DNA of 64,000 nucleotides from Verrucomicrobiaceae bacterium (GTDB lineage Bacteria; Verrucomicrobiota; Verrucomicrobiia; Verrucomicrobiales; Akkermansiaceae): NCBI GenBank assembly GCA_027484055.1, contig JAIXQH010000051.1, positions 62,001 through 126,000 of the forward strand, in the 5' to 3' direction. How positions within the stretch are numbered: the first letter of the stretch is position 1; the number at the start of each line of letters is the position of its first letter. The position numbers and the translations under genes are program-made. The notes beneath the pieces are model-generated. The model was not told the DNA's origin, ran no database searches, and worked only from the letters and a program-made list of their open reading frames with translations. Below are positions 1-59,737 of the stretch, piece after piece.

Positions 1-2620
1 GCTGGCCGAATCCGCGCAGGCGGGGCAATTCCTCCTGTGACAAGTCGGGAGCACGAGTGTCGGACTTTTCGTAACGACCCTTGAAGATGGCAAGCGGCCC
101 GCCATCTCCGAAAAGCAGATCTTGGAATCGCTTCCCTGAATCATCGTCATCGAAGCATAAGATTTGAACAAACAGGCCTCCTTCAAAGGACCCTTCGCCG
201 CAAGGTTTCCATTCCACGCGGACGACGGCCGTGCTCTTTTTGCCTTCGATATCCGCTTCAAGAAAAATTTGGAAACCGTTGCTCCATAAGCAGAGATCCG
301 CTCCCCGGCTTCTCTGATGATATCCAGGTTCATAGTCTTGCCTTTGTTTCCCTGACTCAGGCAGAAGGCAATCGAGAATCTTTCCCATTTGTTCTCGGGC
401 GAAGTAGGCAAGAACCTTTCGGAAATCACTATCGCCCAACATGCTTCCCTGATCTCCGTGGAGGGCGAAGCTGTGGTTCACCAAGCCTGGGTAAGTTGCC
501 GCTGTTGACTCCCACATTCTCGCCATCTCTGTCGCTATCTTGTCTCCGTTGTCAGGAAGAAGTTCCTTTTGGATCGCGATCCAATCATCTGCCCAAAGTC
601 GGACGCAGACATCGCACTGATCGAGCAATTCAAGAACGAGGTCACATCGTTCAGGACTCATTTCTAACCATTTCACTGAGTGGTAATTCATTATTTCCCT
701 CAATCGTTCCCCACCGAAGGTCCGCTGGGTGTAGGCTTTCATCGAAGTAGCCACCTTATTAGTTGTAAGCGTATAGATTGTCTCGATTCCCCACTTCTGA
801 TTCACCATCACCTCGTAGCCGCCTTTGGACTTCTTCAGTTTGAAAATAATCCCGCAGCGGTGGAGATATGTCGCGACGGCATCAGCCTGCTCGATCTGAA
901 TTTTTCTGCGCAATTGATCGTTGAAAACATCTAACTCAGGCGTCTGCTCGGTCACCAATGCCGTCCACGCCTCAAAATTCAGGAACATTCGATCCAGACT
1001 TGATTCACGAAGTTCCCTCGCGATCCGCTGCGCCACTTTTGAGAACAGTTCCGGCACTTTCATTCCATAGCGATCCGCTGCGCCACCGAGAGCTTCCCGA
1101 AGCCAACTGAGAATAAGCCGGGTGGGTTCCGCGCTGCTTTTCGCATGAAAATCCACGGCGACGATGCGGATATCGTGATCCAAAAGCTCGGCGTAGGGTC
1201 CCGCTTGCCTTCTTAGGTATTTCCTTGCTGTCTCTTCGCCTCCGCTTCCTGTGTGGACAACCAGAATGGAGACTTTTCCCTTGGAACTCTTCAAATCATC
1301 GATGGAAGCCAGGCCCAGAGCGGACCGCAGATAGTCGAGCCAGTATTTGAGTTCCCGATACTCGTTCTCCCTTTCGTAAAACGCTTTTTCCCCTTTGTCT
1401 GAAATGGCATCCAGTTCTTTTTTCAACCGGGCCTTGTGGGTATCCGGGTCTGTCGTGGCGATGATGAACACGCTGCCTTCAGAAGCAAAGAGACGGTGCG
1501 TGTTGTGATAGATCTCCTGCCCTCCGAAATCCCAGATGTGAACGGTGCCAGCTTTCGCTTCGCCGCTCCGAAACTGAAAATCCGTGTCCCATTGGTAAAA
1601 CTGGATGTTGCGGGTCGAGTCTTCGTCGAGGCGGACATTTTCTCCCCGGATGGCTTTGCTGATAGTCGTTTTCCCACAGCGACCGCTTCCCAAGAGAAGC
1701 AATTTTGACATGATCATCTCGCCTTTATCACCGGAGAGTCGCTTCATCGTTCGCCACACTCGCGCCACATTGTCTTCACCCGTCACGCTGAGATGGATCT
1801 TTCGAACATCCAAATCGCAAAAGGTGTGCAGCCTTTCGCAGCCTTCCGTCAGGAGGTAACGGATTCCCACTTCGTAATCGCCCTCTACTGTCCACCCGGC
1901 TGGCAATGATTGGATCAATTCGAGGGCCGAGCATTTGTTCAGGTTCAGGTGGTGCAGCCACGGATAGACCGAAAGATCAGGCAGTTTTGTCAAACTTGAG
2001 CAACCTTCCAGAACCAGCTTTTTCAAGCGGCGGGGAGGAAACTGCGGGTGCCATGTGCCATCGGGCGGGGTGCTTTCCTGTGGTGGCAATGTGAGTTCGA
2101 CAAGGTGACTACAACCCTTGGCAGTGAATTCCTCCATATCGCGGCAATCTTCGAGGAAGCTGGAAATGCGGTTGGATGGGATGCCCACGCAGCCGTCCAC
2201 ATGGAACCAGCGAAGGCTCGCGATGCCTTGCTTGGGTAGATTGTTGAGTGCAATGCACTCGGCAAGATCGAGGGTTTCAAGGGTGTCCGGTAGCTCTGGC
2301 AAATGGGAAAGCTGGGAGCACTTCCGGATGTCCAAGGCTTCGAGCCCCTCCGGCAGCGGGCCGAGTTTCTCCATCGGCAGGCCCCAGAGGTGGAGGTGGG
2401 TGAGATTGGGGAAGTGGTCCTTGAGGCCGGAGGCGAGGATAGGGAGGACTTCGGTCCAGTTGTCGCCGTCTTTGGCATCGCCGAGGGTGCCGAGGACGAG
2501 TTTGACGACGGTAGAGTCGGGGGTGCTCGGCCATTCGCAATCGCGGTCGGGGCCGCTTTGTTGCCAGTCTTTGCCGTTTTCGGAGCTGAGGGCGCGTGGT
2601 TTGTCAGAAGTAGTGGTCAT
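1..2620 (-). CDS. Roco-type GTPase: leucine-rich repeats, Roc and COR domains (C-terminus cut by window edge)
   Basis: Manual translation from the ATG at 2620 stays open to the left edge, giving at least 873 residues; the C-terminus lies outside. Residues about 65-260 contain irregular leucine-rich repeats. A Roc (Ras-of-complex) GTPase follows: P-loop GSGRCGKT at 311-318 and a switch-II DFGGQE about 45 residues later. The usual NKxD specificity motif is not obvious; VVHTG stands in its place. A COR-like region (LHRCGIIFKLKK, then NQKWGIETIY) follows the Roc domain, as in known Roco proteins. Roco proteins are GTP-dependent molecular switches in which COR mediates dimerisation and the LRRs usually sense or bind partners. 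It is the last gene of a leftward operon, 71 bp behind an FGE-like gene. Inference: the switch or sensor of a conflict system; what lies C-terminal is unknown. Confidence 0.88.
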   Translation of the reverse strand, partial: MTTTSDKPRALSSENGKDWQQSGPDRDCEWPSTPDSTVVKLVLGTLGDAKDGDNWTEVLPILASGLKDHFPNLTHLHLWGLPMEKLGPLPEGLEALDIRKCSQLSHLPELPDTLETLDLAECIALNNLPKQGIASLRWFHVDGCVGIPSNRISSFLEDCRDMEEFTAKGCSHLVELTLPPQESTPPDGTWHPQFPPRRLKKLVLEGCSSLTKLPDLSVYPWLHHLNLNKCSALELIQSLPAGWTVEGDYEVGIRYLLTEGCERLHTFCDLDVRKIHLSVTGEDNVARVWRTMKRLSGDKGEMIMSKLLLLGSGRCGKTTISKAIRGENVRLDEDSTRNIQFYQWDTDFQFRSGEAKAGTVHIWDFGGQEIYHNTHRLFASEGSVFIIATTDPDTHKARLKKELDAISDKGEKAFYERENEYRELKYWLDYLRSALGLASIDDLKSSKGKVSILVVHTGSGGEETARKYLRRQAGPYAELLDHDIRIVAVDFHAKSSAEPTRLILSWLREALGGAADRYGMKVPELFSKVAQRIARELRESSLDRMFLNFEAWTALVTEQTPELDVFNDQLRRKIQIEQADAVATYLHRCGIIFKLKKSKGGYEVMVNQKWGIETIYTLTTNKVATSMKAYTQRTFGGERLREIMNYHSVKWLEMSPERCDLVLELLDQCDVCVRLWADDWIAIQKELLPDNGDKIATEMARMWESTAATYPGLVNHSFALHGDQGSMLGDSDFRKVLAYFAREQMGKILDCLLPESGKQRQDYEPGYHQRSRGADLCLWSNGFQIFLEADIEGKKSTAVVRVEWKPCGEGSFEGGLFVQILCFDDDDSGKRFQDLLFGDGGPLAIFKGRYEKSDTRAPDLSQEELPRLRGFGQ

Positions 2621-2654
2621 GATGATGGATGGTTAATTTTTTCAAAAAATGTCG

Positions 2655-3608
2655 TCACCGCTGCGCGGCGGGAACGTTTGGTCGCTCAAGTTCAGATGGG
2701 CCGCTCCGTCCACCGCCTCTGCCAAGGCTGCGTCGTCCCTCCTTGTCGTGGCTCCGGGCGCGGAGACTCCGGCCCCTGTGCGACCGGACCAGGGAACACG
2801 CACAAGCGGAAGCCGTTGCCCCTGTAGCCGGAGTCGGGCCTGCCCCCGAGGCGCCACGCCGCGAGGCACCCCGAGCGTTAAAGAACGATGGGCCGCAGCG
2901 CAGGATGCGAAAGCGGTAGTCCCCAGCTTCCCTCGCCACGTTGCTCGCTTCGGCTGCTATCCCTCCATCCACGCAGGTTCGATACGCTTCCGCGTCCAAC
3001 ACGTCGGCACACCATTCCCACACGTTGCCGTGCATGTCGTAGAAACCCCATTTATTTGGGGGAAGTTCACCCACGGGATGGGTTTCGCTGCCGGAGTTCC
3101 CACAATACCACCCGACTTCCGCCAGGGCAGCCTCGACATCGCCGCGCAAGTATTCCGTTGAGGTACCGGCACGGCAGGCGTATTCCCACATCGCCTCGCT
3201 GGGCAGTCCGGCTTGCAAGCCTGGAAGAAGCAGGTCGGACTCCGACAACCATCTGCTGATTACGATTGCCTCGTCCCAATTCACACTCTCGACCGGAAGA
3301 ATTTCGCGTAGTTCTGGCGGCAAGCTCTCATCTTTGGACTGACTCGGATCTACGCCTCTATTTCTTTTGAGCGTTTCAAGCTCTTTCAAACACGCCGTGG
3401 CCATTGAACAGTATTGCGCTTGGGTGACGGGGAATGTGCCGAAATAGAAGGGCTGCGGGATCTTCACAAGATGGGTCGGTTCTTCATGACAGGGTTCGCC
3501 CCTTGAACCCATGCGGAACTCCCCGGGCAGGATGCGGCGGAGCAGCAGTGGGCTGCCGCCGGGCAGGGTGATTTCGAGGGATTCGGGGAGCGTAGCGGGA
3601 TCAGTCAT
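2655..3608 (-). CDS. FGE-sulfatase (SUMF1-like) domain protein 1, C-terminus frameshifted
   Basis: The first 245 or so residues are a clear formylglycine-generating-enzyme-like domain: GEFRMGS (29-35), FPVTQAQY, LPSEAMWEYACRAG (135-148), YDMHGNVWEWC (190-200), then RILRCGPSFFNARG. After that the frame turns into low-complexity sequence. The expected ending (AAWRLGG, GFRLCVFP) is encoded in another frame, with its stop at 2692. Adding one base in the four-C run at 2869-2872 restores a normal C-terminus, so the natural gene probably spans 2692-3608. The ATG overlaps the end of the preceding FGE-like gene by 8 bp, which implies translational coupling. No sulfatase or other classical FGE substrate is encoded nearby. 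The family includes true FGEs, EgtB-like enzymes and non-catalytic binding domains; which applies here is unknown. Confidence 0.8.
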   Translation of the reverse strand: MTDPATLPESLEITLPGGSPLLLRRILPGEFRMGSRGEPCHEEPTHLVKIPQPFYFGTFPVTQAQYCSMATACLKELETLKRNRGVDPSQSKDESLPPELREILPVESVNWDEAIVISRWLSESDLLLPGLQAGLPSEAMWEYACRAGTSTEYLRGDVEAALAEVGWYCGNSGSETHPVGELPPNKWGFYDMHGNVWEWCADVLDAEAYRTCVDGGIAAEASNVAREAGDYRFRILRCGPSFFNARGASRRGASGAGPTPATGATASACACSLVRSHRGRSLRARSHDKEGRRSLGRGGGRSGPSELERPNVPAAQR

Positions 3609-4686
3609 GGGATGGTGATTGTTGCGCTGGAGCCCCGCCGCACCCGTTCCGCCAAGCTCCGCGAGGCCTACCTATGGGCGGCGGCGTCTTGCCCGTGGTT
3701 TCATCGCAGTTTGCGGTGTTGATTCTTCCTTTGAGCTGGTCTTCTAAGGACTTTCCCATATGGATACGTTTGTTTGCCAAATTAGGGAACAAGCACAAAC
3801 GGAATCCGATTAAGCGACTGCGGTAGTTAGGCCACTCGCTGGAGCGATTCGCTGAGCGACAAGGACCGCCCAGATAATGCGAGAAGTTACCTCTTCCGCC
3901 ACAAGAGCCGCCTCGAAGTATGCGGGTAATGAATACCTTCGATTCTTCTAAGTATTCTATGATATCCTGCCCGCCCCAGGCTGTCGCCTCCCATCCATCC
4001 GTTCGCTTATGATAAGATTTGACATCCCATACATCCTCACACCACTCATTGACGTTGCCATGCAAATCATATAACCCCCAGCGGTTAGCGATCAGTTCAC
4101 CGACGGGCTGGGTTACATTACCCGAATTCCCCTGATACCATCCGGCTTTAGCGAGAGCTGTCTCGTCCTCACCGCTTGAGTAGTTGGTTTCGCTCCCTGC
4201 TCGGCAGGCGTATTCCCAGATAGCTTCGCTTGGCAGACCAGCCGGACAGCCACGGGGAAGCAGTCCGGAAGCCGACAACCAGTGGCCGATGGCGTTCGCC
4301 TCGTCCCAGCTTACTTGCTCCACTGGCAGAAATCCACGTCGTTCGGGCGGCAAATGCTTACCTTTAAAATAGCTCGGATCGACGCCTTCGTTTTCCTCGA
4401 TAGCTTTAAGATCGTCTAGGCAGGCTGTGGCTATTGCACGGTATTGTGCTTGGGTAACAGGGAAAGTGCCAAAATAACACGGTTCGGAGATAACTACGCG
4501 AATAAAAGGTGATTCATCTGTGATATTTAGTCGCGAGCCCATGCGGAACTCTCCCGCCTTGATTAGGCGGAAGAACATCGGCACGTCGCCGTCTGGATGA
4601 GGCAGATAGATCGTGAGATCAGAATCCTTCTCCGCCTGAATCCATCCGGGTGTGGGGTTTTCGGGTTGCCAGATTTTCCGGGACAT
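3601..4686 (-). CDS. FGE-sulfatase (SUMF1-like) domain protein 2
   Basis: A 361-residue protein with a complete FGE-like fold signature: GEFRMGS (45-51), FPVTQAQY (74-81), LPSEAIWEYACRAG (151-164), GLYDLHGNVNEWCED (204-218), RILRGGSCGG (255-264) and GFRLCLF (294-300). Classical aerobic FGE uses a copper-binding cysteine pair shortly after the RGGS motif. Here the cysteines are at GGSC and GGPC, not at the canonical spacing, so sulfatase-type cysteine oxidation is doubtful. After the domain, about 60 residues are charged and low in complexity. It lies between a GNAT gene (64-bp gap) and the frameshifted FGE paralogue (8-bp overlap). The two paralogues share an alternating motif order and length, indicating tandem duplication. 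Role inferred only from context: a component of the island's conflict operon. Confidence 0.87.
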   Translation of the reverse strand: MSRKIWQPENPTPGWIQAEKDSDLTIYLPHPDGDVPMFFRLIKAGEFRMGSRLNITDESPFIRVVISEPCYFGTFPVTQAQYRAIATACLDDLKAIEENEGVDPSYFKGKHLPPERRGFLPVEQVSWDEANAIGHWLSASGLLPRGCPAGLPSEAIWEYACRAGSETNYSSGEDETALAKAGWYQGNSGNVTQPVGELIANRWGLYDLHGNVNEWCEDVWDVKSYHKRTDGWEATAWGGQDIIEYLEESKVFITRILRGGSCGGRGNFSHYLGGPCRSANRSSEWPNYRSRLIGFRLCLFPNLANKRIHMGKSLEDQLKGRINTANCDETTGKTPPPIGRPRGAWRNGCGGAPAQQSPSHD

Positions 4687-4750
4687 GGGTGGTGGTTGGG
4701 TGATAACTCAGCCAGCCTAAAGCTCTGTAGCATGGTCAGGCAGCATTGCT

Positions 4751-5653
4751 TCAGGGAAGGTTTTTGCGTAATTCATCTCCGATTTGCTTTTTTTTGAGGT
4801 AGTCAAGGTAACTGAGAATTGCAGGAAAATAGCTTGTGCCAGATTCCATCATTGAATCAAAGCAGTTTTGAATCGTATGACCTGATTTTTTGAGTGCGCT
4901 ACAAAGATTATTGAGTTCAGCACTGATATCAGTTCCCTCAATATAAAGCGAATCCCACCATGCTTTGGCTTCTTGTGAAGCATCTTCCCAATGCAACTCT
5001 GCTTTCCAAAACTTCCAAGTATGATCATATCTCGTCAATTCATTATCGGGTCTTAGTAGACCTGCCACGTAGTGGAGATTGTCAGAAAAAATTGATTCTG
5101 TCTGATGTGGCATTTTGAATGAAAGTCCTTTTCTTCGATAATAGGAAGCAGCGCCTGAGTCTGCAAGGACAGTCCATTGGGGATCAGCAATTCTATTGTC
5201 AATGGCGTTTTTAAGAGCAAGCTGAACAGCATGGCGCATAAGCATGGTGCCAATTCCCAAGCCCTTTTTCTTCGCTGCTGTCCAACCCATCCAAAAGTGA
5301 TTCGGCTTTTCGAGCTCTCCAACCATAGCATTCTGATTCCCTTGTTTCGCCAAGTATTCCGGCAGCACGGAGTAAAATCCACTTACTCCAAGCGGCTTTC
5401 CATTCTTATCTAATGCTACGAAATAATGTAAAACATCAAGCTTCAGCCTGCTCTTCTCCGCCCAATCTTCTGCTTCTTTGATTTTGGATTTATCTCCTGA
5501 GTTCTTATTCAAAAAGTGAGTATAGCAAATAGCTGGATCTTCATAGACTTCATGCAAAGCAGCAGTGTGTTTTGGTAGCTCACTATAGAGAAGATCTTTT
5601 GCAAATTCGAGATATTGGTCTGATAGCGTAACGAATGTAAGTGGCAATTTCAT
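4751..5653 (-). CDS. GNAT-family N-acetyltransferase, operon copy 2
   Basis: A 300-residue protein with an acetyl-CoA-binding GNAT motif, KKKGLGIGTML at 128-138, preceded by a beta-strand pair (HYFVALDKNGKPLGVSGFY) and followed by the usual late motif ASYYRRKGLSF. Residues after about 200 have no recognisable domain. GNATs transfer an acetyl group from acetyl-CoA to an amine; the substrate cannot be predicted. The gene starts 20 bp after the preceding GNAT, so the two are cotranscribed. Base composition is clearly more A+T-rich than the core genes to the right of the island and than the SLATT gene upstream. The two GNATs differ in length and flanking sequence, so they are not a recent duplication. 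Possible role: toxin-like or regulatory acetylation in the conflict system. Confidence 0.8.
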   Translation of the reverse strand: MKLPLTFVTLSDQYLEFAKDLLYSELPKHTAALHEVYEDPAICYTHFLNKNSGDKSKIKEAEDWAEKSRLKLDVLHYFVALDKNGKPLGVSGFYSVLPEYLAKQGNQNAMVGELEKPNHFWMGWTAAKKKGLGIGTMLMRHAVQLALKNAIDNRIADPQWTVLADSGAASYYRRKGLSFKMPHQTESIFSDNLHYVAGLLRPDNELTRYDHTWKFWKAELHWEDASQEAKAWWDSLYIEGTDISAELNNLCSALKKSGHTIQNCFDSMMESGTSYFPAILSYLDYLKKKQIGDELRKNLP

Positions 5654-5673
5654 ATAAGATGGGTTGAGTAAAT

Positions 5674-6627
5674 TTATTGGTGTGATGGGAAAGCTAAAGC
5701 GAGTGAGTGCCTTAGCTTTGCTTCATCAAGATGATAGCCAAGAGGAGCATTCAGTTGATTGATCTCTACTCCAGGTGGTGGTGCGCTGGGATCAATTATT
5801 TCGGATTTCATAAGTTGAAATCCAAACTTCTCATAGAACGCAGAGACGGGAAGTGGTTGAGGATGCTCTTCTTTGGAATAGGTGATATCGCGATGGGGGA
5901 CAGTATCAAGATAGACGCACCGAACACCCTTCTCATACGCGTAAGCGAGTGTCTGAACTAATAGCGCCCCACCCAAACGCATCCCGTGCAACTGTGGATC
6001 TACAGCCATGAATACGATCTTCGCTTCATCATTAGCACCGTAGCTAAAATCTAAATGAGCCACACCAACAGGCCTACAATCATGATAAAGAACACCTAGA
6101 TCCAGTGGAGAGAATATTTCCTTTAGCTCGCTCGACGAATAAGCGGTGATGGGCCACCAAGTGGAGATGTTACCGAGCAAACTTTGGAGTGCTATCAACT
6201 GGGTATTTGTGATCTCCTGAGGCATTCCGGTGAATTCTTCAACAAGCCTGAGTTGGCGACACACCTCGGAATCTTTTCCAAAAGCATAACGCGAACTCAG
6301 CAACTCTATAGTTTCCCGATCCATAGATATCTTGTAATACGAGATGACGAGCGGATCCAGTGGCACGCATTGGATATTTTCGTCTGAATTCACATAAATG
6401 GCAATGGGCGGGGCTTCAGGGCAAGCCGCCGCGTATTTCTCAGGCGGTAATGTCAGAATCTCGCCCTGCTTGGGAGGAGAGTCCAGATATTGCACGGCGT
6501 TAGCAATCAATGCTATCATTCTTGGGTTGCGGTTCGCCTGCTCGCGCATAGCAACTTCCTTGAGCAAATTCCCTTGGGCCTCTTTGGGATTAATATGCGT
6601 CATGTTATTTTTGTGTGAGTTGGACAT
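5674..6627 (-). CDS. GNAT-family N-acetyltransferase, operon copy 1
   Basis: A 317-residue protein whose C-terminal half carries a GNAT core: strand IVFMAVDP (204-211), pyrophosphate-binding loop LHGMRLGGALL (213-223), strand RCVYLDTV and terminal AFYEKFGF (263-270). The N-terminal 150 residues have no family I recognise and may contact the substrate. The start at 6627 (MSNSHKNN) is used here; a second ATG at 6603 is possible. It follows the FGE-like gene by 25 bp and precedes a second GNAT by 20 bp. Composition is A+T-rich for this genome, consistent with horizontal acquisition with the rest of the island. Substrate and role are unknown; the presence of two acetyltransferases suggests a modification step acting on a partner protein or on host translation components. 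Confidence 0.78.
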   Translation of the reverse strand: MSNSHKNNMTHINPKEAQGNLLKEVAMREQANRNPRMIALIANAVQYLDSPPKQGEILTLPPEKYAAACPEAPPIAIYVNSDENIQCVPLDPLVISYYKISMDRETIELLSSRYAFGKDSEVCRQLRLVEEFTGMPQEITNTQLIALQSLLGNISTWWPITAYSSSELKEIFSPLDLGVLYHDCRPVGVAHLDFSYGANDEAKIVFMAVDPQLHGMRLGGALLVQTLAYAYEKGVRCVYLDTVPHRDITYSKEEHPQPLPVSAFYEKFGFQLMKSEIIDPSAPPPGVEINQLNAPLGYHLDEAKLRHSLALAFPSHQ

Positions 6628-6652
6628 CGATTGGGGTAGAAATAATTTAATA

Positions 6653-7552
6653 TTATAAGCGGTCTAGCCAAAGATGACTTAGAATACTGGGTCTTTCGTA
6701 GCCTTTCAGGTATCTTCGCGGACTGTAAGGAGGCTTAAAATCTTTGTGCGCGAGGCAGATGCGAGTCCCTTGCCCCTCACGATGGTTACGAGAAAACCAG
6801 CGGTCACGCCAAGCCGTCCGCCCCATCTTGCTAGGTAATGCCGCACTCATCCGGACAGAACGGTCGTGAATATAGACCTGCTGGCTCGCAACTGAGTGAT
6901 TAAGCGAATGGATTTTTTCCGCTGCCTCATGATTAGTAGATCTTACAGCATAAGCCTTCACGTCTCTTATATCATCACACCATTCCCATTTTATGTCTGG
7001 AAGCCCTTCCATCCCCCAAGGATGCGGGTATTGACTATCTGAGTCTTGAGAAATGCCGTCACCCCACCAATAGTCCGTCGTGGAGCCAGCCCGCATGGCA
7101 TACTCCCACCACGCCTCGGGGGGGATGCACGGATAATAATCCAGAGGTAAATCGGAGGCACAGGTCTTTCTTAGCCATTCACAAAAACCAACAGCTTCAA
7201 ACCAGTTGAATATGGCTCCGGATTCCGGGGACAGAGTACGGATGCGTTCCCCTTGATCGTAACAATCGGGATGATCCTTCTTCCAATATTTAAAGTCATC
7301 AGACTCTAACCATAGCTTGGCTTGTTTTTTGTTTATGGGTAGGCGAGCCAGATAAAATGGCTTGGGAATGATCACTTGGTGCTGGGGTTCTTCATCCCAG
7401 TCGAAACCACGGGCACCCATAATGAACGATAGAGGCTGAATCTTATCAAGAGCCTGCTGCTGAATGGCTATGGGAGGAATTGCCTGAAATGCAATTTCTA
7501 TTCCTTCGGGTGAAGTTATTGGTTCAATTTCAGATATCATGGAGAAATTCAT
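6653..7552 (-). CDS. Divergent FGE-sulfatase-like domain protein 3
   Basis: A 299-residue protein from the ATG at 7552 (ATG 7540 is an alternative). FGE-like landmarks are present but weakened: FIMGARG (43-49), KPFYLARLPINKKQ (64-77), IPPEAWWEYAMRAG (143-156) and IKWEWCDDIRDV (187-198). In the C-terminal third the family's RGGS signature is absent, and GTRICLA (262-268) takes the place of GFRLC. The catalytic cysteine pair is missing, so this copy is probably a structural or binding module, not an active oxidase. It is much more diverged than the two paralogues downstream. It sits between the SLOG/SLATT gene (34-bp gap) and the first GNAT gene (25-bp gap) in the same operon. Confidence 0.75.
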   Translation of the reverse strand: MNFSMISEIEPITSPEGIEIAFQAIPPIAIQQQALDKIQPLSFIMGARGFDWDEEPQHQVIIPKPFYLARLPINKKQAKLWLESDDFKYWKKDHPDCYDQGERIRTLSPESGAIFNWFEAVGFCEWLRKTCASDLPLDYYPCIPPEAWWEYAMRAGSTTDYWWGDGISQDSDSQYPHPWGMEGLPDIKWEWCDDIRDVKAYAVRSTNHEAAEKIHSLNHSVASQQVYIHDRSVRMSAALPSKMGRTAWRDRWFSRNHREGQGTRICLAHKDFKPPYSPRRYLKGYERPSILSHLWLDRL

Positions 7553-7586
7553 GGAGAAATAGGTAGTTGAGTTTTTTAGTGATGGC

Positions 7587-10103
7587 TCAACCTGCCATGA
7601 GCATTTCCAGCGGACGGGCGCGGTGCTGGATGAGCCACTCGGCATTTTCATCGAGGGCCTCGCAGCCGAGTTGGTGGAGGATGTCGTGGATTTCGAAGAG
7701 GATGCGGTCGGTGGTGGCACCGGTGGCAGGAGCCTCAGCGTAGCGGGCGATGAGATCCTGGAAGCGGCGGTCAGCACAGGAGAAGAGATTTCCCATGGCG
7801 CGATATTGGCGGGCTTCCTCGGCGTAGAAATTCCGCTCCGCCCAAGCGACGCAGAGGGCGCCGGCGAGAAGAAGTGTGCCGGTGAAGATGATCCACCAGT
7901 TGTGGCCGTCTGGCCAGTAATGGGTGACTTCGCCCCATTTGTGGGAGATGCCAGCAAGGGCTCCCGCAAGGACAAGGGCGCTGCCCCAAACGAAAGGCTT
8001 GCCAAAGATCGAAAGAAGGAAGTCGTTGAGACTCGCTTTCCCGCCGTGGGCGTGGGCTGCGTGGTGATCCTTGTCCGCGTGTTTTTTCCCGAAATGGGAT
8101 TTCACAAAGACATACGCCAACAGGACAATCCCGGGCCAGACGAGCCAGTGGACGAATTGGCAAGGGCAGTGCTCGAAAGCCTTTTTGATCGGCACGAGGA
8201 GCTTGGCGAGCAGCATGAGGAACATGGAGGCCAAGCCAGCGGCAGCGAGGGTCCATCCGCAAGTGTGCCAGAGGTGGGCGTTCTTTTCCTGTTTCTCAGC
8301 GTTTCCTATTTTACCGGGAGAGCCTTGAAAGTAGTCGATCTGCTCTCCCAACCAATGCTTGCGGGTAGCTTCCAGGAGCTGCACCTGACTGGCCCTGGGG
8401 AGAGCGAGGAACGCCTCGCGAGTGGTCTCGTGCGGCATAGAGATGGAGGAAATCACGTAGCGGATCCAGTCGAGTTCATCGCGCTGGCGCTGCATGTAGT
8501 CGGCAGCGACGCTGCGGCCAGTGCCAGCGAGTTTCCAAAAGAACTGAACCCGCAAGCCCTCGCCAATGGCGCGGTAGTCGAAGCGGTTTTCCTCATCACC
8601 GGACTTTTGGTAGATATAGTATTTTACGCCTGAGTAGATGAGGCAGGAGAAGGTACCCAGAAGGAGGAGGATCTGGGTCCAGATCATGAAATCATCCGGG
8701 AAGATTTGGCCTTCGTGTGGAGGGTGGAGCTTGTGGAGATGATGATGCCAGTGCTCGAAGCAGCCGTAGAAGGTAGCTGCGAAGAGGATGAGCCAGAACA
8801 TTAGGGAGAGGAGCTTTTTTCGATCGCTGGTTAGGCTGCGGGATTTGATCGCAGCACGCCGGCGGATGCGGGCGATAGGATCGAGCGTGGCGGCAAACTC
8901 CGTGGCAGCAGGGTCGGACAGGGTGGCGGTCAACTTGGCGAGTTCCTTTTTCTCGTCTCGGTCTTCAGCGAGACGATTGAACCTTTCCTGATAATTGAGA
9001 ACGCGGCGGAAGCGGGTGTCGCCGGTTTCCTGCCATGCGAGGTGCTGGTCATCGGCCTCAGAGACGTTCTCCGGCTTGAGGTCGTAGGGGTGGAGGAAAC
9101 GCATTGGGCCGGGCTGCGGGAGCCTGGCCTGGAGCGCAGCTGGTAAATCATCGCGCTTGCGGCGGCGGACGGGGATGAGCAGCACGGGGCCGTTGTCCGC
9201 CCAGGCGAAGTTATTGGCCACTGCGAGCAACTCGTGGGTGAGGCCGCGGCGCTTGGCCTCGACGATGGTGGCGGTGCCAGCCTCAAAGATATCGGCGATC
9301 AGGGTGCGCTTGAGTTTCTGAGGATCTTTGGCTTTTTCCTGAGGGGGATCGGATTTTTCCCAAGGTTCGAGGAGGTCGTGAGGTTCATCCTGAATGGCGA
9401 TGAGGAGATCGGAATGGACGGCGATGTATTCCCCGGCAGCGCGGTAACGAAGTCGGCGGCGGGGTTTGTCGTTGTAGTCTGGGTCGGTGCCTGTGAGATC
9501 GGCTTCGGCGGCTTCGCGGGCGGTTTTTCCGGGGGGCATTAGGTCGTTGTCGAGGGCGACGCCGAAGATGAAGCCAGGGATGCGCTGAGCTTGGATTTCC
9601 GCGAGGAGTGAGTGGTAGCGTGCGATCTTGGTAGCATCTTTTTCGCCGAAAGTGGAAGTGCGCTCGTAGATATCCGGCGGAAAAGGGAGCGGCGCAGAGA
9701 GAGAGACGTGTGGGTGAGTCTTGGCATACTCAAGCACGGTCTCGGCGACGATGGTATCCGCGCCCGGTGCGAGGGAGGAAAGCACGAGGATGGGCGTCTG
9801 GGATAGACCGAGGGAGCGCCATGGGTCAGGTTTTTGATTCTTGGGATTATGGTCCTCTGGGGGATCTACAAGATAGCCGGTTCTCGGGTCGAGCCGTTTG
9901 TGGCTGACGGTGATCCAATCGAGGATGTTCACGATCTTGGCCTTGAGACAGGTCATTTTCTCAGGGGAGTCGCACACATCCCGGGCATCCGCGTAAACTA
10001 CGGGATCGACGTTTCCGGTGATCCCGAGCACGAAGGGCGGCTTGGGAATGGTGGTCTGCGTGACGCCGGGGGGTGACTTTTCGGGAGTGGGATCTTGGGA
10101 CAT
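7587..10103 (-). CDS. SLOG-like Rossmann domain fused to six-helix SLATT-like membrane protein
   Basis: First gene of the leftward operon. The start at 10103 (MSQDPTPEK) is preferred; ATG 10139 would add 12 residues, and that longer form is used for numbering. Residues 35-330 form a Rossmann-like domain beginning FVLGITGNVDP, with LSSLAPGADTIVAE at 120-133. This resembles SLOG-type nucleotide-binding domains of conflict systems. Six hydrophobic helices follow at about 443-460, 484-508, 627-648, 661-679, 714-731 and 748-767, separated by charged cytosolic stretches. The C-terminal part after the last helix (AERNFYAEEARQYR, then HRARPLE) is typical of SLATT-like proteins, which are thought to form pores when a nucleotide signal is sensed. 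Inference: membrane sensor or effector. Assignment rests on motif pattern, not on a profile search. Confidence 0.7.
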   Translation of the reverse strand: MSQDPTPEKSPPGVTQTTIPKPPFVLGITGNVDPVVYADARDVCDSPEKMTCLKAKIVNILDWITVSHKRLDPRTGYLVDPPEDHNPKNQKPDPWRSLGLSQTPILVLSSLAPGADTIVAETVLEYAKTHPHVSLSAPLPFPPDIYERTSTFGEKDATKIARYHSLLAEIQAQRIPGFIFGVALDNDLMPPGKTAREAAEADLTGTDPDYNDKPRRRLRYRAAGEYIAVHSDLLIAIQDEPHDLLEPWEKSDPPQEKAKDPQKLKRTLIADIFEAGTATIVEAKRRGLTHELLAVANNFAWADNGPVLLIPVRRRKRDDLPAALQARLPQPGPMRFLHPYDLKPENVSEADDQHLAWQETGDTRFRRVLNYQERFNRLAEDRDEKKELAKLTATLSDPAATEFAATLDPIARIRRRAAIKSRSLTSDRKKLLSLMFWLILFAATFYGCFEHWHHHLHKLHPPHEGQIFPDDFMIWTQILLLLGTFSCLIYSGVKYYIYQKSGDEENRFDYRAIGEGLRVQFFWKLAGTGRSVAADYMQRQRDELDWIRYVISSISMPHETTREAFLALPRASQVQLLEATRKHWLGEQIDYFQGSPGKIGNAEKQEKNAHLWHTCGWTLAAAGLASMFLMLLAKLLVPIKKAFEHCPCQFVHWLVWPGIVLLAYVFVKSHFGKKHADKDHHAAHAHGGKASLNDFLLSIFGKPFVWGSALVLAGALAGISHKWGEVTHYWPDGHNWWIIFTGTLLLAGALCVAWAERNFYAEEARQYRAMGNLFSCADRRFQDLIARYAEAPATGATTDRILFEIHDILHQLGCEALDENAEWLIQHRARPLEMLMAG

Positions 10104-10373
10104 GGTGCTGGGGTAAGGAACGGTTCCGACTGCTAACATGAAGCAATCAGAATGCCGCGGTTCTTCCCATCACAAAGTTCATGACCTTGGAGCTTTCGGG
10201 CTGTCATTGGATGTGCATTCCACCATTCTCAAGATGATTGAAAAAGCTTTCGACAAGAGTGGTCGAAGGCAGGGTCATATTCAGGGATTTATGGCGAAAC
10301 CGTCATCAAGATGTGAGAGATGTTGGCCTGATGAGTGCTCACGGTAAATGGGAGCATTTGAATCCATATCCGC
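10104..10373. promoter_or_regulatory. Divergent intergenic control region of the putative conflict system
   Basis: This 270-bp stretch separates the start of the SLOG/SLATT operon (minus strand) from the trypsin-NUC1 gene (plus strand) and must contain both promoters. It has no convincing gene. I could not pick out a confident -35/-10 pair or operator by eye. The head-to-head layout is consistent with joint control of sensor operon and effector. Confidence 0.4.
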
Positions 10374-12599
10374 ATGAGCTTGATCCACGATCGCATCCAG
10401 AAAGCCATTCAACGTAGCTCAGGGATCGATTTGAAGGAAGTCCGTGAAGAGGCCCGGACGCTACTCCCAACCCAGATGGCGGGGAGGGAGGAACTGGAAG
10501 CTCGTAGGCGATATTTGATGCAGGTGTCATCCGACAGCTCGCAGGCTGAATTGGCTTATGAGCGGATCATTCATGGGAATGAGCTGCAGGATGTGAATTA
10601 CCTGGCGAGGGGAGTGAGCGCGGCCCGAGCCGTGGGGCGCATATCCATCCGCGAGCCCAACGGGCGACTGAGCGGCTACGGAACAGGGTTTTTGATTGGC
10701 GAGGGAGTACTGTTGACCAACAACCACGTGCTGCCTTGCTCGGCCTTGGCCGGGAGATCCGAGCTGGAAATGGAATATGAAAGGGACGAATGGGGCAAGC
10801 AGTTGCCAGGGGTTAAATTTTCGCTTGAGCCCGGGAAGTTATTTTTCACGCATCCGGAGTTGGACTTCTCGGTGGTGGCTGTATCGGCAAGGGCAATGAA
10901 TGCGGAGAGGGCTCTGAGTGAATTTGGACGCCTGCCACTGGTGGGCCTATTGGGCAAGGCGGTGGAGGGGGAATGGCTCACTATCATCCAGCACCCGGGA
11001 GGGGAGTTGAAGCAACTGTGCGTTCGTGAAAACCGGTTGCTGCGGCGAACCCCGGATGTGCTTTGGTATTCGTCAGACACCCTTGGTGGTTCATCCGGAT
11101 CGCCTGTATGCAACAACGACTGGCTGGTGGTGGCCCTGCATCACAGTGGCGTCCCGGAGGTCAAGAACGGGAAGTGGCAGACCGTGGATGGCCAGGACTA
11201 TGACGAGCGTCTGCATCGGGAGGAAGACATCAAGTGGGTGGCCAACGAAGGGATCCGGGTAAGCCGGATCGTGCAGGAGTTGCAACGTTCGATGGGAGAT
11301 CACCCGATGATTGCAGAATGCTGCAAGGATTCGCCGGGGCAGGCGCATCCCAAGCTCCCTCCGGATCCATCTCACTCACCAATCCCACCAATCTATCAAC
11401 CAGCCCAAATCATCCATCCCATGACACCTGAACCGAATCCCCGGCTCGCCGGACAGAAATACCTTCTCAGCTTTGATGCGGTCGGCACTCCAAGCATCAC
11501 CCAATGGCTCGGAGGGGATTCCATTGAATCCACGAAAGCCAGCGCTGAACGCACGCCCGGCCCAAGCGCTCCCGCTCCGCGTGGCATGCGCTTTCAGTTC
11601 GACCATGACTACAGCAACAGGAAGGGATATGACCTCCATTTCCTCACAGCCAACGGAAAGACATCCGCTCACAGTGTGCAACTTCCTACGCTGCAGGGCT
11701 CTTTGGAAGGGAACGCCCTTCGACTTTTGGCAGCCGCTGACGACAAGGACTACGTACTGAAATACACCAATATGAGTCTGGTGATGCACAAGAAGAGGAA
11801 GTTCGCCATCTATTCAGCGGCGAATGTTGACTTTGGCCGGCGTTACGAAGGTCTTCAGTCAAAGCGCGTGTGGAAATACGACCCTCGGATCTCAGTGGAT
11901 GACCAAACAGGCGATGAGGCCTACGACAACGCCTTTGACCGCGGCCATCTGACCCGCCAAGAGGATATGGAATACGGGGATTCCATGCAGGACGCGCTGC
12001 AGTCCACGGCCGACACCTGCCATTGGACGAACGTTTGCACCCAGCATGCGAAATTCAACAGGGGAAAAGACTGGTGGCAGGGAATGGAGCGACACATCCT
12101 AGAATACTCAGTGGATCCGCGCGAAGGAAAAGGTTTCCGTGCTCAAATCTTTACTGGACCGGTGCTCGCCAAGAATGATCCGGAATTTCCTGAAGTTCCG
12201 GATCTCCGAATCCCCGTGAAGTTCTGGAAAGTCTGCGCGGCTGTGACCTCAAGCGGGAAGTTGTTTGCCGTCGCATACCTGTTGGACCAGACACCAGTGA
12301 TCAAAAAATACGGACTGAAAGAGGCAGCCGGGGAAGTTCCCTTTGAACCCTACAAGCTGTTCCAACTGCCGATTTCCGAGTTGGAAGCGATGATCCAGCT
12401 GAAGTTCACATGCGGATCGAACGGAGCCAACCGACTCAGCACGGTAGACCCGTTGGAGGGAGTCGACGCAAACGACCTGCCGGGGCTGGATGCCGACCAG
12501 GACGGATATGATGACCGCTACGAACAGACGGGCGACTCCTATCGAAAACCCCAAGGCTGGCTGGATCTTACCTGCCATCGCCCATTCTTCGGCACTTGA
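10374..12599 (+). CDS. Trypsin-like protease fused to NUC1-type DNA/RNA non-specific endonuclease
   Basis: A 741-residue three-part protein. Residues 1-90 form a small helical N-terminal region (AYERIIHGNELQDVNYL at 61-77), of the kind seen as an effector-associated adaptor before trypsin domains in conflict systems. Residues 95-300 are a trypsin-like peptidase with His118 (TNNHVL), Asp164 (ELDFSVV) and Ser241 (GGSSGSP). A proline-rich linker (about 320-400) leads to a beta-beta-alpha-metal nuclease of the NUC1/Serratia type, with DRGH at 522-525 (general base His525) and the metal-ligand Asn562 (FNRG). All catalytic residues visible are intact. There is no signal peptide, so it acts in the cytoplasm. 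It is transcribed divergently from the seven-gene operon. Inference: the killing effector, with proteolysis possibly gating the nuclease. Confidence 0.88.
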   Translation: MSLIHDRIQKAIQRSSGIDLKEVREEARTLLPTQMAGREELEARRRYLMQVSSDSSQAELAYERIIHGNELQDVNYLARGVSAARAVGRISIREPNGRLSGYGTGFLIGEGVLLTNNHVLPCSALAGRSELEMEYERDEWGKQLPGVKFSLEPGKLFFTHPELDFSVVAVSARAMNAERALSEFGRLPLVGLLGKAVEGEWLTIIQHPGGELKQLCVRENRLLRRTPDVLWYSSDTLGGSSGSPVCNNDWLVVALHHSGVPEVKNGKWQTVDGQDYDERLHREEDIKWVANEGIRVSRIVQELQRSMGDHPMIAECCKDSPGQAHPKLPPDPSHSPIPPIYQPAQIIHPMTPEPNPRLAGQKYLLSFDAVGTPSITQWLGGDSIESTKASAERTPGPSAPAPRGMRFQFDHDYSNRKGYDLHFLTANGKTSAHSVQLPTLQGSLEGNALRLLAAADDKDYVLKYTNMSLVMHKKRKFAIYSAANVDFGRRYEGLQSKRVWKYDPRISVDDQTGDEAYDNAFDRGHLTRQEDMEYGDSMQDALQSTADTCHWTNVCTQHAKFNRGKDWWQGMERHILEYSVDPREGKGFRAQIFTGPVLAKNDPEFPEVPDLRIPVKFWKVCAAVTSSGKLFAVAYLLDQTPVIKKYGLKEAAGEVPFEPYKLFQLPISELEAMIQLKFTCGSNGANRLSTVDPLEGVDANDLPGLDADQDGYDDRYEQTGDSYRKPQGWLDLTCHRPFFGT

Positions 12600-13111
12600 T
12601 TTGCGGATCACGGCTGTCTCTAGCATCGGCATTTATGGTGCGACATGCCACATAGAGATCAAAGGGTTCGGATCATCACCAAACCAGTAGCCTCCGGTCC
12701 AATTCACAGCCTACGAGGATAGTGCTTTGCGGAGGGGATCCCTCTGGCAGCCTCCCGTCACCCGGCAGACGGAAACACTCGTTTCCGTCCGGGTTAGGCG
12801 GGGGTTCAAGGGGGATCGGGACCCAACGCACAAGCAAACCCGCAGGAGGTGGGCTGGCGCAGTCTCTTCGGGGCGTTGCGGGGTGTCCCCGCTGAGATGG
12901 GAGCGAGCAACGGAGAGCAGCAGAGTGTGAGCGCGGGAAGAGACCTCTTCCCGGCCTCCTTCGAATCCGTGGACTAGGCACGTCCTTTCATCCACTCAAC
13001 AATCTATCACCTCAGGCATCTATGTCGAATCTGTCGCACGTCTGCCCACCACGAGGATGGCCTGATCAAACCCATCTGTGCTTCCGAAGCACCAACCGTC
13101 CATCACTCTGG
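12600..13111. other. Non-coding interval with hairpins between effector and integrase
   Basis: This 512-bp stretch has no credible gene. It includes a perfect hairpin around 12775-12795 (GACGGAAAC, 4-base loop, GTTTCCGTC), a G-rich stretch near 12800-12825, and an 8-bp perfect palindrome near 12937-12954 (GGGAAGAG/CTCTTCCC). None is followed by a clear T-run, so they do not look like ordinary terminators. It may hold integrase-binding arm sites or a structured RNA, or may be remnant sequence. Confidence 0.4.
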
Positions 13112-14314
13112 CTAGTCTTTCAGGATTACATCAGGCGTCAGCTTCCAATATTGCTCGGCATCTTCGTCGGTCCGTTCACCATCGAGATAGTGGTGACGAA
13201 CCATGGACTCGGAGTTGCCCATCTCGACAGCCACCACACCCACTTCTCCCAATTGAAGAACCCGGTAAGTCCCGTAGGAATGCCTCAGGATGTCATCTTC
13301 AATAGCTGGCATACCCTCCGGATAATAGGCCCGTTTCCACTTTCGGAATCGCTGGTAAAAGCTGTAACCCCTGACCACCGGGCCAGCCAGCAATCCATTT
13401 TCACGTTTCCGGATGTAGTCAATCCACGATCCGAGCGTTTCGTTCACCGGAACCTGTCTCGCCTTCTTGATTTTTCCGAGGCGCTTCTCCTTGACGAGCT
13501 TTGTCCGATTGAGAATGGCCGACCAGTTCAAGGTGATCCAACCGGCCTGCTTCGGAAGCTCGGTCACGAATTCATGCGGTCTGATCCCGGAGAATAGGGA
13601 AATGACCAAATAGGAAAGCACCTCACGGTCATAATGCCGGATTGCGATCCTGAGCAGTTCCTCCGCTTCATCGGGCGACATCACCTTGACCGGAAGTTCG
13701 CCCGGCTGGGGTTTCTCGATCACCGTGCAGGGGTTCGACGGCAACAGGTCACGGTTTTTGGCCCATGTGCCAAAAGCTGAAATGACCGCCCACACGTTTC
13801 GCGCGGAGGCCGACGAAGTCCGTTCTTCCTCGTCTTTGATGAAACCACGCAGATTCTCCACCTCACACGCCTCAAACACCGTCACCTCTGGAGTATCCTC
13901 GTGTGCCCATTTCAAGAGTCCGAGCCTATGCACGCGTTCCCTTACGGTCGAGGTGGCCTTGCCTTTGGATCGGCAATGATCGATGAATTGATCGATTGCA
14001 TCCGTCAGCGGGATCGAGGCGATTTTCTTGGCGTAATACGGCAACCAGAAATCAACTGCAGCCGCCACAGTGGTTCCAGCCGCTTCACACCGGTGATGCA
14101 AGGTCATTAGTTCGGCAATCAGGTCTGATGGCACTGCGGCAAGTTTCCGCCCCCGGTTTGCCAAGGTCAGTTTGTGTTCGCGAATCACATTCTGGAGCGC
14201 TAGTTTCGTGGCGCGCTGAGCATACTGGTTGCCGCCCAAATAGACCCGATACCCACCATCGGGAGTGTCTGTGATATTGTAGCTCAGTTTCTTCGCCATG
14301 CCATTGATTGACAT
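13112..14314 (-). CDS. Tyrosine recombinase/integrase of the island
   Basis: A 400-residue phage-type integrase. An N-terminal arm-binding region and a SAM-like core-binding domain (about 100-200; LTDAIDQFIDHCRSKG) precede the catalytic domain. Catalytic arginine is in FSGIRPHEF. The second motif reads DDILRHSYGTY, so the usual His of HxxR is Asp. The motif before the nucleophile is MGNSESMVRHHYLDG, with the tyrosine in HHY. ATG 14314 is used; ATG 14299 is possible. It lies 58 bp from a partial tRNA-Cys, the classical arrangement for an element integrated in the 3' end of a tRNA gene. It is therefore assigned as the enzyme that inserted the island spanning region 1-14.4 kb. No excisionase was found nearby. 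Confidence 0.9.
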   Translation of the reverse strand: MSINGMAKKLSYNITDTPDGGYRVYLGGNQYAQRATKLALQNVIREHKLTLANRGRKLAAVPSDLIAELMTLHHRCEAAGTTVAAAVDFWLPYYAKKIASIPLTDAIDQFIDHCRSKGKATSTVRERVHRLGLLKWAHEDTPEVTVFEACEVENLRGFIKDEEERTSSASARNVWAVISAFGTWAKNRDLLPSNPCTVIEKPQPGELPVKVMSPDEAEELLRIAIRHYDREVLSYLVISLFSGIRPHEFVTELPKQAGWITLNWSAILNRTKLVKEKRLGKIKKARQVPVNETLGSWIDYIRKRENGLLAGPVVRGYSFYQRFRKWKRAYYPEGMPAIEDDILRHSYGTYRVLQLGEVGVVAVEMGNSESMVRHHYLDGERTDEDAEQYWKLTPDVILKD

Positions 14315-14371
14315 AATACCAATAGGTTGCCAATAGGTAAGTTTCTGAAATCCCTATTTATCAAGGTCTAG

Positions 14372-14422
14372 TGCGGTTTGCAAAACCGTCATGCGTGGGT
14401 TCGATTCCCACCTCCGCCTCCA
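14372..14422 (+). other. 3' half of tRNA-Cys(GCA): presumed attachment site at island edge
   Basis: Positions 14373-14389 fold as an anticodon arm with the GCA anticodon at 14380-14382. A T-arm (GTGGG, TTCGATT loop, CCCAC) and acceptor strand CTCCGCC with T discriminator and CCA (14420-14422) follow. The matching 5' half, which should begin GGCGGAG, is absent; the sequence upstream is unrelated and leads into the integrase gene. This is the pattern left when an integrase inserts an island into a tRNA 3' end. The intact tRNA-Cys should sit at the other island end, beyond position 1. Confidence 0.85.
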
Positions 14423-14430
14423 ATTTTTTA

Positions 14431-14469
14431 GCCGTAAATCCTTTGTAAATAAGGTTTACGGCTTTTTTT
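14431..14469 (+). terminator. Rho-independent terminator (originally of tRNA-Cys)
   Basis: GCCGTAAA pairs with TTTACGGC, with an inner CCTT/AAGG stem, followed by seven T residues at 14463-14469. It directly follows the tRNA-Cys 3' fragment and so belongs to the chromosomal side of the attachment site. Confidence 0.85.
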
Positions 14470-14522
14470 ACGCCCAAAACGGGCAATAGAAAGGCAATGG
14501 TATCTGGGGACGAGATTTTGGA

Positions 14523-16040
14523 TTATGAATCCAGAAATTTCCCGGGATTGAGGATGCCGTGAGGGTCTAGGGTCCGCTTGAGCGAGCGGTGGAGCGCGTA
14601 GGAAACATCGCCGATGGCTTGTTTGAGCCAGGGTTTCTTGGCGAGTCCAACACCATGTTCTCCGGTGATCGCGCCGCCTGCTTGGAGCACCCAGTGGAAG
14701 AGCACGTTCAAGGCGGCGTCGGCTCTGGTGCGGACGACGGGATCTTCGTAGTTTTTCACCATGAGATTGGTGTGGATATTCCCGTCTCCGGCGTGGCCGA
14801 AGCAGGCGATGGGGATGCCGGATTTTTCTTGGAGACGGCGGGCGAAGGTGACGAGTTCGACGAGCTTGGAGCGAGGCACGACGATGTCTTCGTTCAACTT
14901 GGTGAGGCCGGTATCTCGCAGGGAGAAGGAAAACTCACGGCGTAGTTTCCAGATCCGCTCGCAGGAGGCTTCATCCGGCGCGCGCTCGATGAAGGTGGCT
15001 CCGAGCTGGAGTAATAAGGCGTGAAGCTCTTCCAACTCGGCGCGGGTGGCAGCGGGGCGGCCGTCGATTTCGACGATTAAATGGGCATTTCCTGCGGGAA
15101 AGACATGCTCGCCGAGGCGCTTCCGTGCGGCGGCAAGGGTGAAGCTGTCCGTGATTTCCAAGGCAGACGGGAGATGACCTGCGTTGAAAATGGCCTGCAC
15201 GGCCGCGGCGGCGGTGGAGAATTCCGGGAAAATCGCGGCAAGCATGGCGCGACTCGCGGGCTTGGGAATGAGTCGGAGGGTGGCTTCGGTGACGATGCCG
15301 AGCATCCCTTCAGACCCGGTGAAGAGACCGATGAGGTCAAACCCGGTCTTGTTTTTATGAAGCCGCCCACCGGTGCGGAGGACTTTGCCGTTGGCCAGCA
15401 CCACTTCTAGGCCGAGGATGTAGTTCCGGGTGACTCCATATTTCAAACAGCGTGGCCCACCGGCGTTGGTGGCGATGTTGCCGCCGATTGAGCAATCTTT
15501 GAGAGATGCTGGGTCTGGCGGGTATTCCCAGCCGACTTGATGCGCGGCGTCTTGGATCTGATGGGTGATGACTCCTGGCTGGACGATGGCCACTCCATCC
15601 TCCGGGAAAATCCCGAGAATTTGATTCATCCGTGCAGTGGAGAGGACGATGCCCCCATTCACGGGGACGCAGCCGCCGACGTAGCCAAATCCCGCACCGC
15701 GAGTGGTGACGGGGATGCGGTTACGATGGGCAAACGCTAGAACCGCAGAGACGTCAGCAGTGGACTCGGCGAAAACGATGAGGTCGGGAAGATGACTGGC
15801 GGACCATTTATCAGTCGCATGAACGGCCAAGGCGGCGGCATCGGTTGAGATTTTTTCCGCGCCTATGAGGGTCGTCAGCTGTTGGTGAATTTCCTCGAAG
15901 GAGAGTCGCGCGGGGGAGGATTCGGGGGTGACGGATGCAGGGGTGATCGGTTCGAGCTCTTTCCAAATGTCTGGGTTGGTGGGCTTGAGCCGGATTCCGA
16001 TCTCTGTTTTCGAAGGTCTTCGCCGGGGAGGGATTTTCAT
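14523..16040 (-). CDS. glcD: FAD-binding 2-hydroxyacid oxidase (glycolate oxidase GlcD / D-lactate dehydrogenase type)
   Basis: A 505-residue flavoprotein of the vanillyl-alcohol-oxidase superfamily. An FAD-binding PCMH domain spans about 85-265 (LIVFAESTADVSAVL, TTRGAGFGYVGGC, GGNIATNAGGPRCLKYG). The C-terminal FAD-oxidase cap has the metal-site motif GHAGDGNIHTNL and ends with GEHGVG and HGILNPGKFL, typical of GlcD and D-lactate dehydrogenases. It oxidises a 2-hydroxyacid such as glycolate or D-lactate, passing electrons to the respiratory chain. No glcE or glcF partner is adjacent, so the exact substrate remains open. It is the first chromosomal gene right of the island and ends convergently with the tRNA-Cys terminator. 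Confidence 0.88.
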   Translation of the reverse strand: MKIPPRRRPSKTEIGIRLKPTNPDIWKELEPITPASVTPESSPARLSFEEIHQQLTTLIGAEKISTDAAALAVHATDKWSASHLPDLIVFAESTADVSAVLAFAHRNRIPVTTRGAGFGYVGGCVPVNGGIVLSTARMNQILGIFPEDGVAIVQPGVITHQIQDAAHQVGWEYPPDPASLKDCSIGGNIATNAGGPRCLKYGVTRNYILGLEVVLANGKVLRTGGRLHKNKTGFDLIGLFTGSEGMLGIVTEATLRLIPKPASRAMLAAIFPEFSTAAAAVQAIFNAGHLPSALEITDSFTLAAARKRLGEHVFPAGNAHLIVEIDGRPAATRAELEELHALLLQLGATFIERAPDEASCERIWKLRREFSFSLRDTGLTKLNEDIVVPRSKLVELVTFARRLQEKSGIPIACFGHAGDGNIHTNLMVKNYEDPVVRTRADAALNVLFHWVLQAGGAITGEHGVGLAKKPWLKQAIGDVSYALHRSLKRTLDPHGILNPGKFLDS

Positions 16041-58229: not shown

Positions 58230-58280
58230 GGGCAGGCATTCGGTGCGGGGAACCCGTGTCGTAACGAGAAGGCGGCAATC

Positions 58281-58394
58281 AAGGAGTGGTGATCTCCGAA
58301 TCGCCATGTCCATGAAGGGCCAATGAGTGGCGGCTTGGCTCAGTTCATTGGCTTTTCATGGGCTTGGGCGATTCGGAGATCGCCCCTCCTTGGG
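58281..58394. repeat. 114-bp palindromic element, copy 1
   Basis: The ends are imperfect inverted repeats of about 47 bp (AAGGAGTGGTGATCTCCG against CGGAGATCGCCCCTCCTT), with arms that also pair at GAATCGCC/GGCGATTC and CATGAA/TTCATG. Loop about 18 bp. It differs by one base from a second copy at 59624-59737. A hairpin of this size resembles REP/MITE-type elements. Confidence 0.8.
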
Positions 58395-58487
58395 TCAGAA
58401 CTTCGTGGCGGCGACGGATTTGATTTCCTCTAACTTGGATCGATCGGGCGCCGCACCTCTCGCTTGATCCGGCTTGCCGCCGCCTTT
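58395..58487 (-). pseudogene. Duplicated 3' end of alaS (31-codon remnant)
   Basis: The last 30 or so codons of alaS (GGGKPDQARGAAP, SKLEEIKSVAATKF, TGA) are repeated here with nine base changes against the working gene at 59738. No upstream alaS sequence follows, so it is a leftover tail. Together with the palindromic element it forms a 209-bp direct repeat of 59622-59830. Confidence 0.88.
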
Positions 58488-58507
58488 ATTTCCTTAGCGT
58501 TGGATGA

Positions 58508-59561: not shown

Positions 59562-59623
59562 GGCAGGAAAAATGGCAGAAAAAATGGCAGGCGTCAAACC
59601 GTGAAAGCCTTCGGTTTGATCTC

Positions 59624-59737
59624 AAGGAGTGGTGATCTCCGAATCGCCATGTCCATGAAGGGCCAATGAGTGGCGGCTTGGCTCAGTTCATTGGCTATTC
59701 ATGGGCTTGGGCGATTCGGAGATCGCCCCTCCTTGGG
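59624..59737. repeat. 114-bp palindromic element, copy 2
   Basis: The second copy of the hairpin element, directly after the alaS stop codon. It differs at one position from 58281-58394. It may act as the alaS 3' hairpin. The direct repeat that includes it extends into alaS to 59830. Confidence 0.8.

Follow-up and report, generated by a model that had tools for sequence, protein, structure and literature searches.

The window analyzed here is the whole 64,000-nucleotide stretch of the contig labeled C61 (C61:62001–126000) in a 4.4-Mb assembly of 70 contigs. At window positions 13112–14314, on the minus strand, lies an intact gene for a 400-amino-acid integrase of the tyrosine-recombinase superfamily (PHROG_1 integrase match, 4.4e-18). 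The gene starts 60 bp from, and reads away from, a plus-strand segment at window 14375–14422 (C61:76375–76422) that reads GGTTTGCAAAACCGTCATGCGTGGGTTCGATTCCCACCTCCGCCTCCA and corresponds to the 3′ part (nucleotides 28–75) of tRNA-Cys. This segment is identical at 48 of the 48 positions to C61:10064–10111, the end of an intact tRNA-Cys(GCA) gene found by ARAGORN at C61:10037–10111 on the plus strand, 52 kb to the left of the window. There is no further copy of the 48 bp in the assembly; the core also matches a site on C6, which belongs to a tRNA-Ser and is irrelevant. An exact match of this length is far above chance. Upstream of the fragment, the bases agree with the tRNA 5′ part at only 4 of 27 positions, so the 5′ part is truly absent; neither ARAGORN nor Rfam calls a whole tRNA at this site, in keeping with a fragment.

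The original note, made from the window alone, described the 3′ part of a tRNA-Cys without its 5′ part beside an integrase gene reading away from it, and predicted that an intact tRNA-Cys sharing a roughly 50-bp att core would be found to the left of position 1. Both parts agree with these findings: the leftward genome search recovered the second copy on the same contig and in the same orientation, 66.3 kb away and exact over 48 bp. The stated end of the fragment, 14422, is likewise correct, but the stated start, 14372, needs a small correction, given that exact identity begins at 14375 and the preceding bases are island sequence. The core-to-core distance is 66,311 bp, both cores are on the plus strand, and the fragment lies downstream of the tRNA and extends to its CCA end.

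The two ends also resemble each other just inward of the cores. The search for repeats and the comparison of the ends, which covered 126 kb of C61, revealed only two copies of the 20-bp repeat CCAATAGGT-TG-CCAATAGGT, one just inside the left end (C61:10219–10238, +106 relative to the core) and the other at the right end, on the plus strand (window 14319–14338, C61:76319–76338, −58). The same arms are present in both attL and attR of G062 and in attR of G023 (G-numbers denote genomes of relatives in the genus, 73 of which were compared, and L-numbers denote their loci), and are absent from G016, where the integrase is 51% identical. Other elements at tRNA-Cys have different repeats in the same places, with an 11-bp period, at about +91 to +105 and −54 to −57, namely TGGCAACTAAC in G005, GGATGGTAAGT in G076 and GGGCAAT-type repeats in G072 and G012; in the latter two genomes, the match between the left and right repeats is not by itself above that in shuffled sequence, and the layout is alike. 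The present island shares its arm-repeat geometry with four other elements inserted in tRNA-Cys, and the CCAATAGGT-TG-CCAATAGGT copies are probably arm-type integrase sites. Because the arm repeats differ with the integrase, they offer a simple test of integrase-site pairing. A point against integration is that the GC content shows no sharp step at the island ends.

These features are best explained by an island that entered tRNA-Cys by site-specific recombination and whose right end lies in the window, a reading to which a probability of about 0.96 can be assigned. So delimited, the island runs from C61:10112 to C61:76374 and measures about 66.3 kb, of which the last 14.4 kb are inside the window. 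The attP of the mobile island would have recombined with the 3′ part of the tRNA-Cys gene, with strand cutting and exchange very likely carried out by the island integrase in the anticodon stem-loop. The island would have carried its own copy of the tRNA 3′ part, which is why the tRNA at the left end is still complete; the original 3′ part would have been displaced to become attR, now at window 14375–14422.

Some relatives repeat the last ~18 nucleotides of tRNA-Cys downstream of the gene; tRNA 3′ ends therefore are duplicated by other means as well, and the fragment might have arisen by chance or by a local duplication rather than by integration. This origin is nevertheless extremely improbable, considering that the 48 bp are exact and 66 kb apart, with an integrase gene adjacent and paired repeats at the ends, that the same arrangement is seen in several species, and that an empty and a filled site are available for another element. 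The paired end repeats, together with G062 and G016, already contradict it.

Immediately to the right of the fragment, on the plus strand, window 14423–14500 consists of a terminator hairpin and GGCAATAGAAAGGCAAT, a layout that recurs to the right of the intact tRNA-Cys in G005, G012 and G023. This segment thus resembles the left end of another element type. An older insertion at this tRNA probably came first, and the island is probably bordered by the left end of that earlier element instead of by original chromosome. Element-like ends are also present to the right of the fragments in G023 and G062. The first chromosomal gene to the right of the island encodes an FAD-linked oxidase (window 14523–16040, minus strand; Pfam PF02913, PF01565) that is found in 35 of 39 relatives. 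Much farther to the right, at window 58279–59830, there are 209-bp direct repeats that are 95% identical and also match themselves in inverted orientation.

Among the family models, the integrase matches XerC and XerD at E-values of 1e-7 to 1e-9, below the curated cut-off (XerC at 8.5e-9). Pfam has no match for the protein or its relatives, a point against the integration reading; with the threshold relaxed to E = 1, the sole hit, Polyketide_cyc2, is spurious. A PDB sequence search with the protein returned nothing, and a search with the family profile returned one weak match, Gp33 (E 0.044); the AlphaFold2 model, run without a usable alignment, has a pLDDT of 35, too low to show the fold. In the alignment, R245, K281, R344 and Y376 are invariant in five homologs, and the two usual histidine positions are occupied by Asp341 and Asn367 in all aligned family members (homologs L033, L034, L060 and L108); these positions were assigned by their spacing relative to XerD. 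The two positions vary among recombinases, the second one often being His or Trp, and the pair of histidines is usual rather than universal, so that membership in the tyrosine-recombinase superfamily stands despite these residues.

Whether the island can still move is a separate matter. It could be an immobile remnant in which the integrase or the att sites have lost their function: neither catalytic histidine is retained, no excisionase gene was recognized, and the closest integrases are broken, the one in G062 lacking the first 48 codons and the one in G023 being split at codon 83. However, the integrase open reading frame is full length, the cores are identical and both end repeats are intact, and Asp and Asn are common to the whole integrase family, so that these residues probably are functional there. 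Immobility accordingly seems a substantial but somewhat less favored possibility, and we infer that the integrase still works.

Close integrases are found in only three other members of the genus, G062 (94% identity), G023 (92%) and G016 (51%), in all cases beside tRNA-Cys fragments. The region is thus not conserved in relatives, and neither of the two outcomes named in the original note as refuting it (no second copy on the left, conservation in all close relatives) applies. Against the integration reading, a search for joined flanks in the 73 genus genomes detected no empty site for the present island. A flanking enzyme is only ~80% identical in the nearest relatives, and the gene order around tRNA-Cys is unstable. 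Peptide deformylase is the left neighbor of tRNA-Cys in G061, G064, G050 and G000; among the loci read in relatives, none has the FAD oxidase next to tRNA-Cys. Synteny on the right side (FAD oxidase, GT9) is not conserved either, with only G062 having GT9 near its tRNA-Cys fragment.

The point of exchange can be narrowed down with the help of these relatives. In G016, attL and attR share, besides the invariant acceptor end, only the stretch GGTTTGCAAAACCGTCAT, which places the crossover of that element in the anticodon stem-loop; by homology, the crossover segment of the present island would be the same 18 bp, window 14375–14392 on the plus strand, and the exchange would have occurred within it. 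The T-arm of the intact tRNA in G016 reads TTCGAGAG...CTCTC and that of the fragment reads GCGTGGGTTCAATTCCCAC, the latter being the tRNA-Cys T-arm of G023, a sister species (the FAD oxidases of the two are 91% identical), and of G088, where no recognizable element end was found beside tRNA-Cys. The T-arm of the intact tRNA in G016 is therefore foreign and that of the fragment is the sister clade's, from which it follows that the island most likely supplied a new 3′ part and displaced the resident one to attR. G023 was dropped as a clean attL/attR pair, since its intact tRNA bears the left end of a different element than its fragment. Most genomes have a single T-arm variant in both tRNA and fragment; in G000, G005, G072, G012, G062 and G076, the T-arms of attL and attR are alike within each genome and different between genomes. 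Such sameness within genomes suggests that exchange occurs mostly among close relatives, or else gene conversion.

The recurrence of insertion at this gene is apparent across the genus. Partial tRNA-Cys copies that begin at nucleotides 24–28 are present in ten genomes, and G002 represents a natural empty site for a 6.7-kb element that occupies the same tRNA in G012, with 2.55 kb on the left and 1.3 kb on the right aligning at 93% and meeting at the core. Together, the partial copies and the G012/G002 pair identify tRNA-Cys as a recurrent target. A broader proposition, for which the odds appear about even, is that tRNA-Cys is a serial landing pad in the genus, where unrelated integrases (including the branch with Asp/Asn in place of both histidines) share the anticodon crossover and a common att layout, with paired arm repeats of 11-bp period at about +100 and −57, and where elements are stacked in tandem and swap cargo. 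Separately, five genomes (G007, G080, G082, G085 and G094; loci L063, L066, L068, L134 and L136) contain repeats of ~90–110 bp on the 3′ side of the intact tRNA-Cys, with each unit ending in the final tRNA nucleotides (up to TTCCCACCTCCGCCTCCA), an arrangement that resembles the rtT repeats found downstream of E. coli tyrT.

The cargo of the island is rich in defense genes, which, like the relaxase among them, speaks for the integration reading. From the left end, it includes a sigma-70 region-4 protein (C61:10714), a PbeC-like protein (C61:13677), PbeA (C61:16196) and PbeC (C61:18623), followed by a phosphorothioate (PT)-DNA restriction endonuclease of the HNH type (C61:21177, above the NCBIfam cut-off) and DndE (C61:21991), DndD (C61:22406), DndC (C61:24400), DndB (C61:26274) and DndA (C61:27560). 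The DndA–E modification set is thus complete and adjoins the gene that matches the PT-DNA restriction endonuclease model (C61:20722–28693), and an enzyme of this type would be expected to target the modification that the neighboring genes produce. Farther along are AbiEii (C61:32731), AbiEi (C61:33573) and a MobA/VirD2-like relaxase (C61:37046–37966; match 3e-6); no transfer genes were seen among the open reading frames scanned. The island may be mobilizable. A decayed Argonaute pair (C61:46125 and 47548), an FAD oxidoreductase (C61:50908) and an AAA protein (C61:54898) follow.

Within the window, the cargo begins with the 5′-proximal part of an LRR-Roc-COR (ROCO) GTPase gene (window 1–2620, minus strand; whole gene C61:61279–64620; Pfam Roc 4e-15, COR-A 1.1e-6). 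This is followed, on the minus strand, by two genes for FGE-sulfatase-domain proteins (window 2655–3608 and 3601–4686; Pfam PF03781, E 3e-35 and 7e-35), two GNAT-like genes (window 4751–6627; Pfam PF00583, 6.5e-5 and 1.8e-7) and an 850-codon open reading frame with no Pfam, PADLOC or NCBIfam match (window 7587–10139). Next comes, on the plus strand, a gene for a protein that combines a trypsin-like peptidase with a DNA/RNA non-specific endonuclease (window 10374–12599; Pfam PF13365 8e-17, PF01223 1.7e-32). Four more FGE-sulfatase-domain genes are located at C61:56403–61245, and a further FGE match lies in the open reading frame at window 6653–8005. In all, C61:54898–62000 and window 1–12599 hold six or seven FGE-sulfatase genes clustered with the ROCO GTPase, the AAA protein, the two GNAT-like genes and the trypsin-endonuclease protein, with few or no PADLOC matches; this cluster is possibly an undescribed conflict system.

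The history of the island appears to be more complex than a single insertion. Between the cargo and the integrase gene, downstream of the latter, window 12672–12975 holds a repeat with two further copies, at C61:45621–45915 (90%) and C61:44047–44329 (85%), and none elsewhere in the genome. The first of these belongs to a segment, C61:45621–46158, that is colinear with the right end and joins the repeat to a stump of the same integrase gene (about amino acids 354–400, 96%), and this stump directly abuts a 3′-truncated Argonaute gene. In the respective region, C61:46009–48252, the short-Argonaute gene is cut short at its 3′ end by the stump, and the gene paired with it has no counterpart to the TIR part of the model. 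A likely refinement of the integration reading is therefore that the 66 kb derive from two or more islands, with integrases nearly identical to each other, that were inserted in tandem at this tRNA. A deletion would then have fused them, so that their outer ends alone are left; it would have removed an integrase, an att site and the 3′ end of the Argonaute gene. The stump and the third copy of the repeat at C61:44047–44329 favor such a fusion, although the repeat could have been moved by homologous recombination too. Moreover, a genome search for the core detected no third tRNA-Cys core between the island ends, so that a composite island would have had to lose its inner att site.

With the integration reading, the exact ends of a 66-kb, defense-rich island of Akkermansiaceae are known, and the relatives G016 and G012/G002 supply natural data that locate the crossover. 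It also follows that such islands replace part of the only tRNA-Cys gene detected in the host. No description of tRNA-Cys islands in Akkermansiaceae was found in literature searches.

Compared with known PT modification and restriction modules (PbeABCD, PMC6459918; DndI, PMC11662687; survey, PMC10853773), the island contains the full set of DndA, DndB, DndC, DndD and DndE, together with PbeA and PbeC proteins and an HNH endonuclease of the PT-DNA-binding kind. Unlike in PbeABCD, the PbeB and PbeD models are unmatched among the open reading frames scanned, and unlike DndI, the HNH protein does not have the DUF262-DUF1524 layout and instead matches the model for PT-DNA restriction endonucleases. 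The ends resemble those of phage lambda-type integration in having a core and direct-repeat sites on both sides of attP, with a constant geometry between elements, but the arm function would here be deduced from the repeats. In the Islander collection, 3760 of the 3919 islands have a 3′ tDNA fragment, and an anticodon-centered attP, found in 2083 of the 3919, is the commonest class (PMC4383910). By the criteria of that collection, the present island combines an intact tRNA gene and its own fragment on one replicon, in the same orientation, with the fragment being a 3′ end fragment, not an internal one, located downstream, with the integrase gene (window 13112–14314) between them and with a length, 66.3 kb, in the range of 2–200 kb. 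An empty site in relatives would be supporting evidence and does not belong to the Islander filters. It differs in the host lineage, Akkermansiaceae, in an integrase unseen by Pfam and in its probably composite structure with a decayed inner end, and is otherwise a standard tRNA-anchored, defense-rich island of a well known kind.
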